Shown in pieces: positions 16,425 to 55,424 of a stretch of DNA of 64,000 bases (positions are counted from its first letter, which is position 1; the number at the start of each line of letters is the position of its first letter). The notes below the pieces were generated by a model that was not told where the DNA came from, did no database searches, and was given only the letters and a program-made list of their open reading frames with translations. The stretch comes from Pseudanabaena sp. PCC 6802 (GTDB taxonomy: Bacteria; Cyanobacteriota; Cyanobacteriia; Pseudanabaenales; Pseudanabaenaceae), in the NCBI RefSeq assembly GCF_000332175.1, contig NZ_KB235910.1, positions 124,001 through 188,000 on the forward strand, written 5' to 3'. The position numbers were made by a program, and so were the translations under genes.

Positions 16425-16498
16425 GCGGTGACGAACGGGTAGACGGTGACGAACGGGTAGGCGGTGACGAACGGGTAGGCGGTGACGAACGGGTAAGG
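16409..16498 (+). repeat. 18-bp tandem repeat, five copies
   Basis: Five head-to-tail units of GGTGACGAACGGGTAGGC, with one- or two-base changes in units 1, 2 and 5. The first unit supplies the stop codon of the VOC gene, and every unit keeps a TAG in that frame (Val-Thr-Asn-Gly-stop). The unit length is a multiple of three, so the opposite strand reads as PYPFVTA repeats. No unique spacers separate units, so it is not a CRISPR array. Confidence 0.9.
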
Positions 16499-16560
16499 GT
16501 TTAGCATTTGTCCGACAGCCTTAGCATCAAATGCAAAAATGCATGACAAATGCTAAACCC
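16497..16560. repeat. Inverted-repeat element GGGTTTAGCATTTGTC..GACAAATGCTAAACCC
   Basis: Imperfect 16-bp terminal arms flank a 30-bp centre. A homologous element sits at 54657-54719, where it has entered a protein-coding gene. A C-rich tract of CCCAACGCCTAACCCC type follows it here, matching the G-rich tracts beside the other copy. Confidence 0.75.
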
Positions 16561-17104
16561 CTGCGTCAACGCCCAACGCCTAACCCCTAACCCCACCCCC
16601 CCATACACCTCCAATAAAAAACAAAGGCACTGCGGGTGGAAGCAGAACCTTTGCACGAGGAATCTTTGCCTATGAGCTGTATTAGGTAATTGGCATAACA
16701 ACTAGTTAATAATTGCTAACCCTACCCAGAGGAAGCTTAATGGCTTAACTTAGCTTTTGACACGACTATATTGCAATGCTTGGCCGCAAACGTAAACTTG
16801 AGAAGTTGCAATTTCATCAGCATAAAAGTGCAAGTTTTACAGTGATTTTTAGCATCCATCCCGTCACATATGAGCACCAGACTATCTCTAATTCACATCA
16901 AATCCGATCTCTATTGTTGGGGTAAGAGGTTAACCCGAGCAGCACTTTTGGTTAAGACAATTTAAGACAAATCTAGACAATTTGAGATAATTTGAGACAA
17001 TTTATCTCAATTATTCGTTGTAGTATCGGTTAGGGGCAATTGCTTTGTTTTTTCTCAAAATTATTTAGTAACTGCCCCTCAAGTCGATAATTAAAGGCAG
17101 TAAT
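16561..17104. other. Intergenic region upstream of the channel gene
   Basis: About 540 bp without a convincing gene. It includes the C-rich tract (16561-16611), an AT-rich stretch and, at 16954-17012, a run of imperfect direct repeats around GACAATTTGAGA. This run ends about 90 bp before the channel ATG and may overlap its promoter. No tRNA or known RNA gene was recognised. Confidence 0.4.
16954..17012 (+). repeat. Short imperfect direct repeats (AGACAATTT)
   Basis: Four to five phased copies of an AGACAATTT/AGATAATTT word at about 12-15-bp spacing lie directly upstream of the mechanosensitive channel gene, followed by the inverted form ATCTCAATT. Regular spacing just before a promoter could be a multi-site operator, or simple slippage expansion. 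No regulator is known for this pattern to me. Confidence 0.5.
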
Positions 17105-33301: not shown

Positions 33302-33343
33302 CTTGGGTATACTGACGCAAGCTAGCTATGTTGAACAATTCCG

Positions 33344-35347
33344 ATGCTGGGAAAAATACTTGTTAATCGGTTCAAGATTACTAAACGACTGAGTCAGGGT
33401 GGCTTTGGCGAGACCTTTATTGCCGAAGATATGCATTTGCCAGATCGCCCCAAATGCGTCATCAAGCAACTCAAACCGATAGATAAACGCCCGTTTGTTT
33501 TGGCAGCAGCCAAGAAATTATTCGATCGCGAAGCTCAAACCCTGTACAAACTTGGCAAACACGACCAGATCCCATCCCTATTAGCCCACTTTGAAGAAGG
33601 CACGGAATTTTATTTAGCTTTAGAATTTGTTGAAGGTCAAGTACTGAGTGACGAGATCTTCCCCGGACATCCCATGGGCCAGTCCTACGTAATGCATTTG
33701 CTGCGAGACTTGTTGAGCATTCTGGATTTCGTGCACAAGCAGGGCGTGATCCATCGCGATATTAAGCCAGGCAACTTAATCCGACGCTTTTCCGACCACC
33801 GCTTAGTTCTCATTGACTTCGGTGCGGTCAAAGAAGCCGGCCTACAGCAACCCGACCCACAGGGGCATACTAGCTCGACCGTTGCTGTTGGGACATTTGG
33901 CTATATGCCGGACGAGCAAGCTAATGGTAGACCCAAGTTTACCAGCGATGTCTTTGCGGCTGGAATGCTGGCCATCCAAGCTTTGACGGGCATCTCGCCA
34001 AATCAATTACCAGAAGACCTGGCTACTGGCGAAGTGGTCTGGCGCGATCGCATCCCATTCATTGACCCCGAGCTAGCGGCAGTGCTGGACAAAATGGTGA
34101 AATCGCACTTTACGCAACGATACCAATCTGCGTCAGAAGCGTTAGAAGCCTTGGGAAAAGTAGCGGAGCCAGCCACAATAGTCTCAGTCCCTCCCACTAT
34201 TCTGTCTCCTCAACCATCCACGCCAAATATTCCCCAACCTGGGTTACCCACCACAAAATCCGAGTTGCCACAAGCACCAGGCCAAACAACCATCGTAACG
34301 GCAGAAGCTGGCACAACCGCAGAAACTGACATAACCGCAGAAACTAAAGTAGACGCGGGAACGATCTCTAATCCCACCAAACCACAAAACGCTACTAAAC
34401 CGCAGGTCAAGCTCCCAAATTCTCGAATTCCAACAACTCTATATAAACAAAAGTCTAGAAGTAATGGAAAACTAATATGGTTGGGAGTTGGAAGTATTGC
34501 AGTTGCGGGCGCGATCGCTAGCTACTTCTTTGTCCAATCTGAAGGCGATAAACGCCTCCTGGCAAGGCTAGAAGAAGCAAAAACCTTTAAAACCGCTGAA
34601 AACTATTCGCAATGTCTTGAGATGGCGAGATCGATTCCTTTTGGCACTCGCTATGACAAGGAGGCGAAGGCGCTTCTAGAAGATTGTCAAATTGGCCAAG
34701 CGAAACCCATCCTGGCTCAAGCGCAGCGACTCGCAAAGGAGAATAAGCTAGAAGTAGCGATCGCGATAGCCAATAAAATTCCCTCTACAAGCGCTGCGTA
34801 TCCAGAGGTGCAGAAGCAAGTAGAGCAATGGGCGGAGAACTTATTGCAAATCGCCGCCAAACAATTCGAGCAAGGGAAATTAAAAGAGGCGATCGCCTTG
34901 ATTAAGTCCATTCCACCAGACTCTCCCACTGGGAAGAAAGCCCAGGAATTAGCTGAGCAATTGCGAGCCCAATGGATTGCAGACGAAGCTGCCTTTAAAG
35001 CTGCCGATAAAGCTGCAAAAGAGGGGAAATGGAGCGACGCGATCGCTGCTTCGGCGCAAGTTAAAACCACCTTTTGGCAGAAGCAAACATATCCAATTAT
35101 TGAGAAGGCAAATGCCGCGCTAACACCTGCGACTGCTCCTCCCACCCCCGAGCCCGTTCAAACAACCGTCCAACCAGCACAGACCGTCCAAACAACCGTC
35201 CAAACAGCCCAACCAGTGCAGCCTACTCCAACCCCTGTGGTGCAGCAAGCTCCGCCACCGCCACCGCCACCACCACCGCCACCACCGCCACCACCACCGC
35301 CGCCACCGCCACCACCGCCGCCACCGCCACCACCACCAGTAAGGTAA
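33344..35347 (+). CDS. Ser/Thr protein kinase with polyproline tail
   Basis: The 667-residue protein has a Hanks-type kinase domain (glycine loop SQGGFG, K41, HRD at 137-139, DFG at 158-160), a Pro/Thr-rich linker, one membrane span near 375-396, then a helical repeat region (about 405-600) with units such as QLAKENKLEVAIAIANKIP and QFEQGKLKEAIALIKSIPP. It ends in PEPVQTT-type repeats and 29 consecutive prolines (637-665). The kinase faces the cytoplasm and the helical and proline parts the other side. It is a tandem paralogue of the gene at 35528. Confidence 0.9.
   Translation: MLGKILVNRFKITKRLSQGGFGETFIAEDMHLPDRPKCVIKQLKPIDKRPFVLAAAKKLFDREAQTLYKLGKHDQIPSLLAHFEEGTEFYLALEFVEGQVLSDEIFPGHPMGQSYVMHLLRDLLSILDFVHKQGVIHRDIKPGNLIRRFSDHRLVLIDFGAVKEAGLQQPDPQGHTSSTVAVGTFGYMPDEQANGRPKFTSDVFAAGMLAIQALTGISPNQLPEDLATGEVVWRDRIPFIDPELAAVLDKMVKSHFTQRYQSASEALEALGKVAEPATIVSVPPTILSPQPSTPNIPQPGLPTTKSELPQAPGQTTIVTAEAGTTAETDITAETKVDAGTISNPTKPQNATKPQVKLPNSRIPTTLYKQKSRSNGKLIWLGVGSIAVAGAIASYFFVQSEGDKRLLARLEEAKTFKTAENYSQCLEMARSIPFGTRYDKEAKALLEDCQIGQAKPILAQAQRLAKENKLEVAIAIANKIPSTSAAYPEVQKQVEQWAENLLQIAAKQFEQGKLKEAIALIKSIPPDSPTGKKAQELAEQLRAQWIADEAAFKAADKAAKEGKWSDAIAASAQVKTTFWQKQTYPIIEKANAALTPATAPPTPEPVQTTVQPAQTVQTTVQTAQPVQPTPTPVVQQAPPPPPPPPPPPPPPPPPPPPPPPPPPPPPVR
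35252..35338 (+). repeat. CCACCG microsatellite encoding 29 prolines
   Basis: An uninterrupted run of CCA and CCG codons, mostly in CCACCG or CCACCACCG order, ends three codons before the kinase stop. The paralogous gene at 35528 has only short proline patches at the same point, so the run is a lineage- or strain-specific expansion. Length may vary by slippage without shifting the frame. Confidence 0.95.
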
Positions 35348-35527
35348 CCCAACGTAGTTGACTCATGCATAGCAGGCGATCGCTGAGTATAGGCACGATT
35401 ACCTCAATATTGATGTGGTAAGGCCACAACCAGATGCGATCCGGCAAGCTAATTACGCCCCGCTCTTACGAAAATTTGAGACAGGCGATAAACTAAAAGT
35501 AAGCTAGCTAAAATTAAACGATCGCCA

Positions 35528-37549
35528 ATGCTGGGAACAACCCTTGTCAATCGTTACAAAATCACCAGAGAACTAAGTCACGGTGGCTTTGGACAGACAT
35601 TTATTGCTGAAGATTTGCATTTGCCCGGGCATCCTAAGTGCGCGATCAAGCAGCTAAAACCAATGGACACCCGTCCGGTGGTTTTGGAAGCTGCCAAGAA
35701 ATTATTCGATCGCGAAGCAGAAACCCTGTACAAACTAGGCAAACACGACCAGATCCCGTCGCTATTAGCCCACTTTGAGGAAGGTGCGGAATTTTACTTA
35801 GCGCAAGAGTTTATCGAAGGTAAGGTCTTGAGTGACGAGATTCTACCCGGTCAGCCCTTGAGTCAGCCGTACGTGGTGCAATTAATGCAGGATATCCTGC
35901 ATATTCTAGATTTCGTGCACAAACAGGGTGTAATTCACCGCGATATTAAGCCAGCTAATTTAATTCGCCGCTTTTCAGACAATCGCTTAGTCCTGATCGA
36001 CTTTGGCGCGGTTAAGGAAGCTAGTTTACAGCGGCTTGACCCACAGGGGCACACTAGCTCCACTATGGCTGTGGGAACCTACGGCTACATGCCCGACGAA
36101 CAAGCCAATGGTAGGCCCAAATTTGCCAGCGATATCTATGCAGTTGGGATGTTGGGCATTCAGGCTTTGACTGGTGTCTTACCCAATCAACTGCCGGAAG
36201 ATTTTGCCACAGGCGAGGTGGTCTGGCGCAACATGGTTCCATCGCTTTCCCCTGAGCTAGCAGAGGTGCTGGACAAAATGGCGCGATCGCATTTCACTCA
36301 ACGCTATCAATCTGCTTCGGAAGCAATAGAAGCACTACAAAAAGTACCAGAACCAGTCGCAGCAATGGCAGGCGTGGCTCCTACTGTTTTACCCGCGCAA
36401 TTCAATCCTCCCAGTATTGCACCACCCCCAGCTATCCAACCTTTCGTATCGCCTGTAGTACCTGCTACAGAAACTTCGAAACCTACGGAAGTGCCTCAAG
36501 TAGGTCTTCCCATTCAAACACCTGCACTAGAAACAGCAGTCCAGCCAGGTGCGATCGCAAATCCGACAACACCTCAGAATGGATTACCTCAAACCACTAC
36601 TCCACAATCCAATAATCCTCCTGGAATTCCAATTTCTACAACTCCGCACAAGCAGAATTCAGGGATTAAGCTCAACAAACAACTGGTCTGGATCGGAGTT
36701 GGCAGTATTGCCGCTGCGGGCGCGATCGCCAGCTACTTTGTCGTCCAGGGAGAAGGGGATAAACGTCTCCTGGCAAGATTGGAAGAGGCAAGAACTTCTA
36801 AAGCAGCAGGAAATTATTCGCAGTGTATCGAGCGCGTAAAATCAATTCCCTCCGGCTCTCGCTATGAGGGAGAAGCTAAAGCACTTGGGGAAGAATGTCA
36901 AACTGCCCAAATCAATTCCCAAGCAAAAACTATTCTCGCAGAAGCGCAGCAACTCGCAAAGGATAACAAACTGGAAGCAGCGATTGCTGCTGCTAATAAG
37001 ATTCCCTCCACCAGTTCATCCTACCCAGAAGTGCAGAAATCGATCGCGCAATGGTCTGAGAGCTTACTAAAAATTGCCACCAGACAATTCGAGCAAGGTA
37101 AATTAAAAGAGGCGATCGCCCTGACTAGATCCATCCCACCAGGTTCTCCCACTGGGAAGAAAGCCCAGCAATTAGTAACGCAATGGCAAGCACAATGGAA
37201 TGCAGACGAGGCTGCCTTCAAAGCCGCAGATAAAGCTGTTAAAGAAGGGAAATGGAGGGATGCGATCGCGTCTTCGCAGAAGGTAAAAACCGCTTTTTGG
37301 AAAAAGCAAACCGATCCGATTGTTGCAAAGGCGAATGCAGCGCTGACACCCGCACCCGCACCCGCACCGGAGCCAGTCCAGGCAACGCAACCCGTCCAGA
37401 CGCGAGAAACCTACGTGGAACCTGCGCCTGTCTACGAGGCTCCAGCCCCTGTCAGACCGGCACCACCACCGGAACCCGCCTACGTGCCACCCCCACCAGC
37501 ACGGGAACCCAGCTTAGACAGCTTACCCGCACCTAGCAAGGGTAATTGA
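35528..37549 (+). CDS. Ser/Thr protein kinase, tandem paralogue
   Basis: The 673-residue protein is collinear with the preceding kinase: same glycine loop region (SHGGFGQTF), HRDIKPANL, LIDFGAVKEA, linker, membrane span near 385-406 and helical repeats (QLAKDNKLEAAIAAANKIP; QFEQGKLKEAIALTRSIPP). The tail is proline-rich (EPAYVPPPPAREPS) without a long homopolymer. The two genes diverge most in the linker and tail, and little in the kinase domain, which is the pattern of a tandem duplication with purifying selection on the catalytic part. The substrates are unknown. Confidence 0.9.
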   Translation: MLGTTLVNRYKITRELSHGGFGQTFIAEDLHLPGHPKCAIKQLKPMDTRPVVLEAAKKLFDREAETLYKLGKHDQIPSLLAHFEEGAEFYLAQEFIEGKVLSDEILPGQPLSQPYVVQLMQDILHILDFVHKQGVIHRDIKPANLIRRFSDNRLVLIDFGAVKEASLQRLDPQGHTSSTMAVGTYGYMPDEQANGRPKFASDIYAVGMLGIQALTGVLPNQLPEDFATGEVVWRNMVPSLSPELAEVLDKMARSHFTQRYQSASEAIEALQKVPEPVAAMAGVAPTVLPAQFNPPSIAPPPAIQPFVSPVVPATETSKPTEVPQVGLPIQTPALETAVQPGAIANPTTPQNGLPQTTTPQSNNPPGIPISTTPHKQNSGIKLNKQLVWIGVGSIAAAGAIASYFVVQGEGDKRLLARLEEARTSKAAGNYSQCIERVKSIPSGSRYEGEAKALGEECQTAQINSQAKTILAEAQQLAKDNKLEAAIAAANKIPSTSSSYPEVQKSIAQWSESLLKIATRQFEQGKLKEAIALTRSIPPGSPTGKKAQQLVTQWQAQWNADEAAFKAADKAVKEGKWRDAIASSQKVKTAFWKKQTDPIVAKANAALTPAPAPAPEPVQATQPVQTRETYVEPAPVYEAPAPVRPAPPPEPAYVPPPPAREPSLDSLPAPSKGN

Positions 37550-53543: not shown

Positions 53544-55424
53544 ATGCTCAAACGGATTCAGCAATATCGCGAGGTTTGGTTGCCGGTTGTTTTTTGCCTA
53601 GCGATTTTCCCAGCCTGCCTATTGGGGTTTCTGATTGTCAAATACAGCGTTAACGTCCCGTTTCAAGATCAGTGGGCGATCGCGAGATTATTACCGAAAT
53701 GGGTCGAGGGTACTCTTTCCTTTAGCGACCTGATTGCCCAACATAACGAGAGCCGCAAGTTTTTTCCGCGCCTGATTTTTCTCACCCTGGCGCAGTTTAC
53801 CCACTGGGACTCGCGCTACGAGATGCTGGTTTCGTTTCTCCTGGCTTGTCTGGTGGCGGTTAATATTTATCGTCTCAATCGACTCACTATTGGTGGTAGT
53901 GCCGTACAAGGATTGTTGCTAGCAGCGATCGCTAATCTAATCATTTTCTCGCCCGTGCAATGGGATAACTGGTTGTGGGGCATTCAGGTAGTGGTATTTA
54001 TGCCCATTGCCTGTATCACCACCGCCATTTCGGTTTGCTATTCCCAACTCAAACTCAACACCAAATTTGGCATTTGCCTGGGTTTAGCCATTGTCAGCAT
54101 GTACTCCTATGCCAATGGCATCCTGTACTGGTTGGTAGTGTTTCCCGTTCTCTTCCCAACATGGCGCGATTGGCTTGCCCATCGGCGATTGGTCGTAGTC
54201 TGGTGGATCGGTTTTGCGATCGCCTGCGCGATCTATTTCTACAATTACCAAAAGCCAGCCCAAACCCCCAGTTTTGCCTATGCTTTGACACATCCCATCG
54301 CAGCGGTCCATTATTTCCTCGCCTTCCTCGGCAATCCATTAGGATATGGTGGTGTTTTACCACTGGTTCTGCAATCGTCCATTGTTGGATTATTGCTACT
54401 ATTGTTAGCTGGGGGCATCTGCCTGTATTTCACCAAACATCCCAAGTTAATCTATCCCAACCGTGGCTGGTTGAGCTTGGGAGCCTATTCATTACTGAGC
54501 GCCTCGATTACTACGCTCGGTCGAGTTGGTTTTGGCATCGAGCAGGCTACGTCATCGCGATACACGACCTTTTCGTTGTATTTCTTGGTGGCATTGATAC
54601 ATTTGGGTTGGGGGGCAGGGGTTGGAGGTTGGAGGTTGGGCGGGGGATCCCGCAGGAGTTTAGCATTTGTCTGTCAATCTCCTCATCAAACGCAAGAATT
54701 CCTGACAAACGCTAAACCCTTACTGGACGGGAGTGGGGGCGGTTGGGAGTGGGGGCGGTTGGGAGATTGGCGGCGATTTTCGAAGGTGGCGATCTCGGCT
54801 GGAATAAGCATTCTCTTACTTCTGCATAGTCAAACTTTCATCTATTCCGTGCAGATGATGGGATACACCAGAACCAGCCGCTTGCAAGGGAAAGCGTGCT
54901 TGCTTTTAATTAACAATTTCGTGCAAGAGGATTGTCTCAGAGAGAAAGTGAGTCCCCGCCTATCTGTGGTGCAGGAGCGCGTACACCAGATCGATAAATA
55001 TGGATTCTTGAAACCACCTTTACTCACTACAAAAGTTGCAGAGGATATCAGTGGAGATAGTTCTGAGAATGCAAATAAATACGGCTACTTTGACAGTCTG
55101 CATCGAAACTCAGATGGGAGCTATACGGCGATCGGTTGGGCGATATTACCGCAAAAGCGATCGCCAGCAGATGCCTTAATTCTGACCTACACGGATGCAA
55201 ATAACAAATCGATTATGTTTGCTGTGGCAGATAACCAATTCCCCAGGGATGACATAGCTAAAGCCTATGGCAACTCTGACTACCGCAATTCTGGCTGGTT
55301 AGGAAAGATTGCGAAAGATAAATTACCAACAGGAAAAGTGCAGATTAGCGCCTGGGCATTTGATACGGATACGGGCAAAGCATTCCGACTCAGCGGCGAT
55401 CAATATGCGATACGCCTGCCCTAA
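53544..55424 (+). CDS. Polytopic membrane protein with in-frame repeat insertion
   Basis: The 626-residue protein has about ten membrane spans in residues 1-355 (for example VFCLAIFPACLLGFLIV and WWIGFAIACAIYF), in the style of glycosyltransferase-type or polymerase-like membrane proteins, and a soluble C-terminal domain (from about 440). I do not recognise the family. Between the last two spans a Gly/Trp/Arg-rich segment (about residues 353-410) is encoded by repeat DNA: G-rich tandem tracts around a copy of the element at 16497. The frame is maintained, so the protein may be intact but altered. Confidence 0.7.
   Translation: MLKRIQQYREVWLPVVFCLAIFPACLLGFLIVKYSVNVPFQDQWAIARLLPKWVEGTLSFSDLIAQHNESRKFFPRLIFLTLAQFTHWDSRYEMLVSFLLACLVAVNIYRLNRLTIGGSAVQGLLLAAIANLIIFSPVQWDNWLWGIQVVVFMPIACITTAISVCYSQLKLNTKFGICLGLAIVSMYSYANGILYWLVVFPVLFPTWRDWLAHRRLVVVWWIGFAIACAIYFYNYQKPAQTPSFAYALTHPIAAVHYFLAFLGNPLGYGGVLPLVLQSSIVGLLLLLLAGGICLYFTKHPKLIYPNRGWLSLGAYSLLSASITTLGRVGFGIEQATSSRYTTFSLYFLVALIHLGWGAGVGGWRLGGGSRRSLAFVCQSPHQTQEFLTNAKPLLDGSGGGWEWGRLGDWRRFSKVAISAGISILLLLHSQTFIYSVQMMGYTRTSRLQGKACLLLINNFVQEDCLREKVSPRLSVVQERVHQIDKYGFLKPPLLTTKVAEDISGDSSENANKYGYFDSLHRNSDGSYTAIGWAILPQKRSPADALILTYTDANNKSIMFAVADNQFPRDDIAKAYGNSDYRNSGWLGKIAKDKLPTGKVQISAWAFDTDTGKAFRLSGDQYAIRLP
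54657..54719. repeat. Inverted-repeat element inside a coding sequence
   Basis: Arms GTTTAGCATTTGTCTG and CTGACAAACGCTAAACCC match those of the intergenic element at 16497-16560. It is flanked on both sides by G-rich tracts, including GGTTGGAGGTTGGAGG before it and two copies of GGGAGTGGGGGCGGTT after it (54730-54762). The whole insert keeps the host gene reading frame. Confidence 0.8.

Follow-up and report, generated by a model that had tools for sequence, protein, structure and literature searches.

A small palindromic repeat of Pseudanabaena sp. PCC 6802 found between genes and in frame within unrelated protein genes

Introduction

Rickettsia palindromic elements (RPE) are short palindromic repeats that have been described both between genes and in frame inside unrelated protein genes (PMC2229807, PMC10969869). 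According to the published accounts, RPE occur in 19 protein reading frames, and an RPE-bearing guanylate kinase is active with a changed substrate affinity (PMC2229807); in R. conorii, 44 integrations are reported, nearly half of which are in open reading frames (ORFs) (PMC10969869). In-frame inserts have been reported from Rickettsia, Wolbachia and Methanocaldococcus, typically in non-structured segments (PMC2996958). Two other groups of small repeats are also relevant. Bacterial MITEs (Correia/NEMIS, ERIC, RU) are small, have terminal inverted repeats and lack a transposase of their own, and some are reported to be fused in frame to ORFs (PMC2229807). GTAG REP sequences and REPINs are repeated palindromes or inverted doublets that form hairpins, and GTAG repeats have been reported from cyanobacteria (PMC3733652). 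REP sequences of this kind form a stem-loop of 20-40 bp that carries GTAG (or GYAG, GYRG, GTRG, GTMG) at one end, and a REPIN joins two inverted REPs through a spacer in a genome that has a RAYT gene. In the cyanobacterium Nostoc, small dispersed mobile repeats were reportedly described by Elhai et al. in 2008, which the element reported below resembles by description.

Here, we describe a palindromic element of Pseudanabaena sp. PCC 6802, first recognized in a window of 64,000 nt (positions 124,001 to 188,000 of contig NZ_KB235910.1, assembly GCF_000332175.1). By analogy, it is best read as a protein-coding palindromic repeat working like RPE, that is, a small non-autonomous palindromic repeat that has probably multiplied in this genome and is tolerated in frame in loops and linkers (rough probability 0.85). 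Many copies lie both between and inside genes, and in-frame insertions occur in conserved genes that have insert-free relatives (CobB, CobN, DUF5682, GcvP and ChlH-type). The likeness is one of behaviour, and no membership of an RPE sequence family is claimed. RPE measure 105-146 bp or approximately 150 bp in the Rickettsia accounts, whereas the element is 58-73 nt long and belongs to a cyanobacterium, and 9 of its 53 copies read are well inside long ORFs compared with nearly half reported for R. conorii (PMC10969869). The preliminary description of the window regarded the creation of coding sequence from an intergenic repeat as uncommon, which it is, but it is already known in Rickettsia, Wolbachia and other microbes. 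In our literature search, no title or abstract opening among the matches listed reports the element or in-frame palindromes in Pseudanabaena; protein-coding palindromic repeats are known as a kind, and among these matches the cyanobacterial lineage is what appears to be new.

An in-frame palindrome in a membrane-protein gene

The features of the window gene and of the related copies discussed below are collected in Table 1.

Table 1. Location of the palindromic element and associated features (window coordinates unless a locus is named)
Feature	Position	Strand	Description
Host gene	53544..55424	+	626-aa multi-span membrane protein; ORF open throughout; no family match
G-rich tract, left of palindrome	54603..54650	+	Codes approximately GWGAGVGGWRLGGGS; gap in 12/12 aligned homologues
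Complete palindromic element	54651..54723	+	CGCAGGAG-58 nt-CCCTTAC; ends in the opposite order to those of the majority form (GTAAGGG-58-CCCCTGCG); from flank conservation in 44 copies
Left arm	54659..54671	+	TTTAGCATTTGTC; from sequence
32-nt core	54672..54703	+	Codes approximately CQSPHQTQEFL
Right arm (inverted partner)	54704..54716	+	GACAAACGCTAAA; from sequence
G-rich tract, right of palindrome	54729..54775	+	GGGAGTGGGGGCGGTT twice (54729-54744, 54745-54760); codes approximately GSGGGWEWGRLGDWRR
Second window copy	16493..16565	+	Intergenic; GTAAGGG-58-CCCCTGCG; tandem and C-rich tracts on both sides
Frames holding altered-arm copies (TTAAGC/GCTTAA)	L200 876-3998 and L201 2-3232 (minus strand)		GcvP, ChlH-type subunit; DIPDIPDI-coding repeats alongside

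The palindrome within the gene (58 nt with 13-nt arms, 54659-54716) codes for approximately 20 residues, LAFVCQSPHQTQEFLTNAKP. The preliminary description had proposed that a repeat lies in frame inside a membrane-protein gene and that the same element occurs between genes near 16497. Both proposals hold: the host ORF is uninterrupted, the palindrome is present in none of 12 aligned homologues (12 proteins from 9 genomes, with matches to the C-terminal part alone excluded), and an intergenic copy with two perfect arms is found at 16500-16557. An ordinary conserved domain, to which the segment would belong if all orthologues had it with conserved residues, is rejected, the aligned relatives being without it. 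The host protein had no match in Pfam or NCBIfam and was matched in 11 of the 77 genomes searched, its own genome counted. These sequence comparisons support the view that a mostly intergenic interspersed repeat became in-frame coding sequence.

Other proposals were borne out in part. The interval had been said to add about 55 Gly/Trp/Arg-rich residues to a loop; it does encode residues 354-411, but the net gain over the two closest homologues, which are shorter at the insert, is 38-40 residues, and the Gly/Trp/Arg-richness belongs to the G-rich tracts on both sides and not to the palindrome itself. The loop holding the insert measures 66 residues versus 15-56 in the homologues (26 and 28 in the two closest), and in two of the 12 homologues an independent long loop occupies the site (56 residues versus 66); judging from this alignment, the site varies in length anyway. 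As for the suggested position between the last two membrane spans, hydropathy places a span at 415-433, C-terminal to the insert, but the hydrophobic stretch at approximately 340-355, just N-terminal to it, is below the span threshold used, and the candidate span preceding the insert is 271-289. The tandem G-rich tracts are as reported (GGGAGTGGGGGCGGTT twice at 54729-54760), and possible quadruplex folding agrees, by score only, with G4Hunter peaks of 2.24 (cluster 54595-54649) and 2.28 (cluster 54721-54775).

Elsewhere in the window, Rfam gave no match at gathering thresholds. Two diverged direct-repeat pairs (81% and 79% alike, spaced by about 2.2 kb) at 33341-37218 are perhaps a tandem gene duplication.

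Copy number, anatomy and flanking tracts

With the window copy as query, BLAST found 51 matches in the Pseudanabaena sp. PCC 6802 genome, some of which are a single place on both strands. A total of 53 palindrome copies were read: 44 first-type copies of 58 nt, from the reading of 43 genomic stretches, and nine more that either differ in length or come from seven additional stretches. Of these nine, two measure 59 nt and two 57 nt, and the remaining five measure 58 nt and have TTAAGC/GCTTAA as arms. The complete palindrome with at most three arm mismatches was found at 38 places in the genome versus none for a reversed control pattern. Single arms with at most two mismatches number 50 forward and 54 reverse genome-wide, which hints at a few copies beyond the 53; within the window there are eight (four of them in the two copies) against 2.49 expected, and none of 100 shuffles reaches eight.

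Conservation beyond the palindrome covers 7 nt on the left (GTAAGGG) and 8 nt on the right (CCCCTGCG) and falls off outside these ends, which gives a unit of approximately 73 nt. Of the 13 arm positions, the first 12 are Watson-Crick paired in 38-44 of the 44 first-type copies, and position 13 is paired in 17. The orientation of the core agrees with the GTAAGGG...CCCCTGCG ends in 29 of the 44 copies and is reversed in 15, including the copy inside the window gene; ten of these calls are weak, and the 34 firm ones divide into 24 agreeing and 10 reversed. The sequence outside the ends (approximately 52 nt on each side) is C-richer in 27 of the 29 agreeing copies and G-richer in all 15 reversed copies (Fisher p 6e-10), that is, the strand bias of the flanks follows the ends and not the core. 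In addition, two copies (L085 at 2489 and L088 at 2526) have identical 58-nt cores placed in opposite ways relative to the conserved ends, both with firm calls. From these orientations, the core appears to be able to flip or move separately from the ends. In one further copy (L068 at 2424), an 8-nt loop is enclosed by 25 perfect pairs in a row, which gives the impression that one half was copied onto the other.

The C/G-rich tracts are a frequent companion of the element and not special to the window gene. A 25-nt window with an absolute G4Hunter score of at least 1.5 lies within 100 nt of 31 of the 44 copies, whereas the share among random positions is 5% overall and 17.5% outside ORFs. These tracts may travel with the element, mark the sites that it enters or expand later. 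Next to the palindrome in host genes, they contribute residues rich in Pro or Gly, and in the window gene they supply the Gly/Trp/Arg residues and the quadruplex-like runs.

Possible mobility and comparison with other small repeats

Six Y1 transposase matches are present in the genome, and their 3.3-kb loci hold only single arm matches with three mismatches. No element-flanked transposase was found in these loci, and mobilisation by a RAYT was not supported, none of the six having the element in its locus. A TnpB-like ORF, named by eye, stands beside the Y1 match in two of them (L107 and L103). No target duplication of fixed length was detected in the 44 copies over many offsets and lengths, the boundaries being blurred by C-rich tracts; the best signal was a 2-nt match in 16 of the 44 (shuffled mean 9.4, maximum 15), and a few others exceeded their shuffled maximum by one. 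Transposition is therefore suggested by the copy number and the distribution of the copies.

Like bacterial MITEs, the element is small, with terminal inverted repeats (the arms described above) and no transposase of its own; no fixed-length target duplication was seen across its blurred boundaries, and no parent insertion sequence was identified. With regard to GTAG REP sequences, its ends are GTAAGGG and CGCAGGGG, of which GCAG fits GYAG but GTAA does not, the palindrome is longer than 20-40 bp, and no hairpin is seen by eye within a single arm. The arms and spacer would fit a REPIN, but a Y1 transposase with an adjoining element was not found in the six loci. The related Pseudanabaena elements described below often have a GTAGGGG or CCCCTAC end, a feature shared with this group.

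Related palindromes in other genomes and the question of a selected structure

When the 58-nt form was used as a DNA query, only one of 77 genomes matched, that of Pseudanabaena sp. PCC 6802 itself. A related 60-nt form with TTTAGCATTTG arms was detected in 22 of the 77 genomes, 21 of them in one genus, with 1-5 copies each and 41 places in all; the reversed control of this pattern matched one genome, once per strand. Many of these copies, including those in Pseudanabaena records, have a GTAGGGG or CCCCTAC end. In the 20 loci of the 60-nt form that were read, one copy lies in a frame of at least 120 codons, at its very start. Several copies (L180, L186, L197 and others) have a further conserved stretch to the left of the palindrome (GCAGGGACAATTTATCGGTGA and similar), the sequence of which suggests a longer composite repeat. 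Two of 18 exact-match stretches in named genomes fell outside cyanobacteria (Flavobacterium, in a 257-codon frame, and Desulfobacteraceae) and were set aside as chance because they lack GTAG-like ends and, by eye, similar cores. An origin from phage was likewise discarded, with no exact match in viral contigs.

Among the 41 listed places of the 60-nt form, all 17 with two arm mismatches have paired changes (TTGAGC with GCTCAA, CTTAGC with GCTAAG), and five have a single unpaired arm change. Such paired changes point to hairpin maintenance or to the copying of one arm from the other. The first of these options could be extended to a selected DNA or RNA structure, a hairpin or a G-quadruplex acting for example as a pause or processing site, with coding being incidental. 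It would account for the paired changes in relatives and for TTAAGC with GCTTAA in the Pseudanabaena sp. PCC 6802 genome, for the G4-like tracts near 31 of the 44 copies, and for the stable hairpin predicted at 54652-54723 (DNA -10.1 kcal/mol, z -3.75; RNA -18.1 kcal/mol, z -4.40). However, a mobile palindrome needs paired arms for its own spread or gains them by arm copying, which would also give the copy with 25 consecutive perfect pairs, and the aligned relatives of the host genes manage without the element. We consider selection for such a structure improbable.

Copies inside genes

Nine of the 53 copies lie well inside long ORFs that remain open. Seven of these are first-type copies, all in the same frame and core orientation, and their hosts are the window gene, CobN, CobB, an Orn/Lys/Arg decarboxylase, a DUF5682 protein, a CHAT-TPR protein and a 187-codon ORF without family match; CobN and CobB exceeded the cut-offs of their own NCBIfam families, and the decarboxylase and DUF5682 those of Pfam. 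The peptides are similar but not identical, approximating GLAFVxxSxHQTQEFxTNAKP (LAFVCQSPHQTQEFLTNAKP in the window gene versus LAFARSSSHQTQEFMTNAKP in CobB). The other two are among the five altered-arm copies and lie in another frame inside GcvP (1041 aa) and a ChlH-type subunit, where they code for a different peptide, VKHL..QMLNP; the usual arm GTT TAG reads GTT AAG in the altered arm, so a stop in this second frame is removed. The decarboxylase copy differs at 1 of 58 nt from a copy outside any frame of at least 90 codons, and this insertion is therefore considered recent.

Several classes of copies were excluded from this count: seven under frames of 91-131 codons (L070, L072, L073, L076, L083 twice and L087); 11 overlapping the end of a stop-to-stop frame of at least 200 codons (L066, L073, L076, L079, L084, L087, L091, L093, L094, L095 and L102), three of which are also in the former list; and, among the extra copies, two located right where a long frame begins (L202, 256 codons; L205, 392 codons) and those under short or opposite-strand frames over L200, L201, L203 and L204. 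In L102 (1499-2518, plus strand), a 340-codon frame stops within the palindrome copy (..GVGGWGLASVR, then stop), and judging from this reading the C-terminal end of the protein and its stop codon may be provided by the element.

That seven unrelated ORFs carry similar peptides, always in the same orientation and frame, might indicate a selected functional module, such as a localisation or interaction tag, that spread for its usefulness, and the third codon positions are slightly more variable over the 58 nt (0.60 bits versus 0.52 and 0.50). However, 24 of the 44 first-type copies are open in the usual frame (30 of 264 copy-frames across all six frames), and with one frame usually open a uniform frame is expected from stop avoidance alone. 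Moreover, 17 of the other 37 first-type copies are open, a share close to what independent columns predict (43%) and lower than what random substitutions of the consensus would give (70%); within the core, the third positions are the least variable (0.68 bits versus 0.77 and 0.75); and the two altered-arm copies code from another frame altogether. Given the open fraction and the mixed third-position variability, coding selection on all copies is not supported overall, and a useful module is very improbable.

The ratio of in-gene to other first-type copies is 7 to 37, or approximately 0.19. About 84% of the window is covered by ATG ORFs of at least 100 aa in any frame, a value that overstates true coding. 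If insertion were random and frame-breaking copies were lost, a ratio of approximately 0.6 would be expected, or 0.2 if the added length were a multiple of three one time in three; these are rough estimates from small numbers. On these values, no special targeting of genes is needed.

Absence of the element from relatives of the host proteins

Homologous proteins were compared at the loci fetched, which do not include every match: 13 each for CobN (43 of 44 genomes match, its own included), CobB (38 of 44) and the decarboxylase (42 of 44), and all nine others for DUF5682 (10 of 44); L064 and L098 were left out. All 13 CobB relatives are shorter by exactly 29 residues. For CobN, nine of 13 are shorter by exactly 33, and the other four, in which the site is filled by different sequence, are shorter by 1-25. 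DUF5682 gave five of nine relatives shorter by exactly 33, three shorter by 7-22 and one remote homologue that is 2 residues longer, these last four again having different sequence at the site. For the decarboxylase, all 13 relatives fall short by 3-11 residues, and the linker concerned is variable throughout the set. In nine (L156, L158-L165), the linker before a PREAYFAK-like motif holds a different repeated peptide (ITNYQLPITNYQ, ITNYELRVTNYQ and similar), which, by its sequence, resembles an in-frame reading of some other intergenic simple repeat; such insertions may commonly land in this linker.

The relatives with solved structures also lack the insert. The CobN relative 9uk9 has 8 residues where the insert-bearing CobN has 44, the GcvP relative 4lgl is about 24 residues shorter across the insert-holding stretch, and 4zhj, a relative of ChlH, is about 45 residues shorter than the ChlH-type protein; no match to CobB was found among solved structures. 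Apart from copies of the element, CobB and the decarboxylase have no second match in their own genome. Two more distant frames of 1342 and 1357 codons (30 and 33% identity) were among the matches listed for the CobN query, and because the 1357-codon frame is the insert-bearing ChlH-type gene (L201), a second ChlH-type frame exists in the genome.

That the ORFs bearing inserts result from gene damage or from errors of assembly is the least credible explanation and highly improbable: one of the nine, L098, is without family match and is perhaps no gene at all, but conserved sequence continues in frame on both sides of the insert in CobN, CobB, GcvP, DUF5682, the decarboxylase and the ChlH-type protein, and the outcome is alike from one host to the next.

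Proposed history and significance

Taking RPE as the working model, we propose that a small palindrome (a 58-nt unit, approximately 73 nt with its ends) would have multiplied in the genome, usually outside genes and beside C/G-rich simple repeats. New copies would arrive by transposition of hairpin-forming DNA, and the C/G-rich repeats would grow beside the element, with or after its arrival. Insertions within genes would survive only with the usually stop-free frame, an added length that is a multiple of three, and a site in a loop or linker, the peptide being passive cargo tolerated by the host protein without forming a functional domain. Transposition, tolerance of the peptide and flipping of the core are steps that we infer. 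A bolder version, that the palindrome is actively spreading and evolving to live in genes, would combine movement or flipping of the 58-nt unit apart from its 7-8 nt ends with the paired arm change (TTTAGC/GCTAAA to TTAAGC/GCTTAA) that opens the second frame used in GcvP and the ChlH-type subunit; we regard it as unlikely.

In the accounts cited, most descriptions of in-frame palindromic elements concern intracellular bacteria (PMC2229807, PMC10969869, PMC2996958), for which relaxed selection is an easy explanation. The element described here has nine in-frame copies in a presumably free-living photosynthetic lineage, including copies in enzymes of cobalamin, tetrapyrrole and glycine cleavage metabolism. 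It would offer a second system for studying the movement of such elements and the amount of foreign peptide that an enzyme can accommodate, for which CobB, with an insert of exactly 29 residues, would be a convenient test protein.
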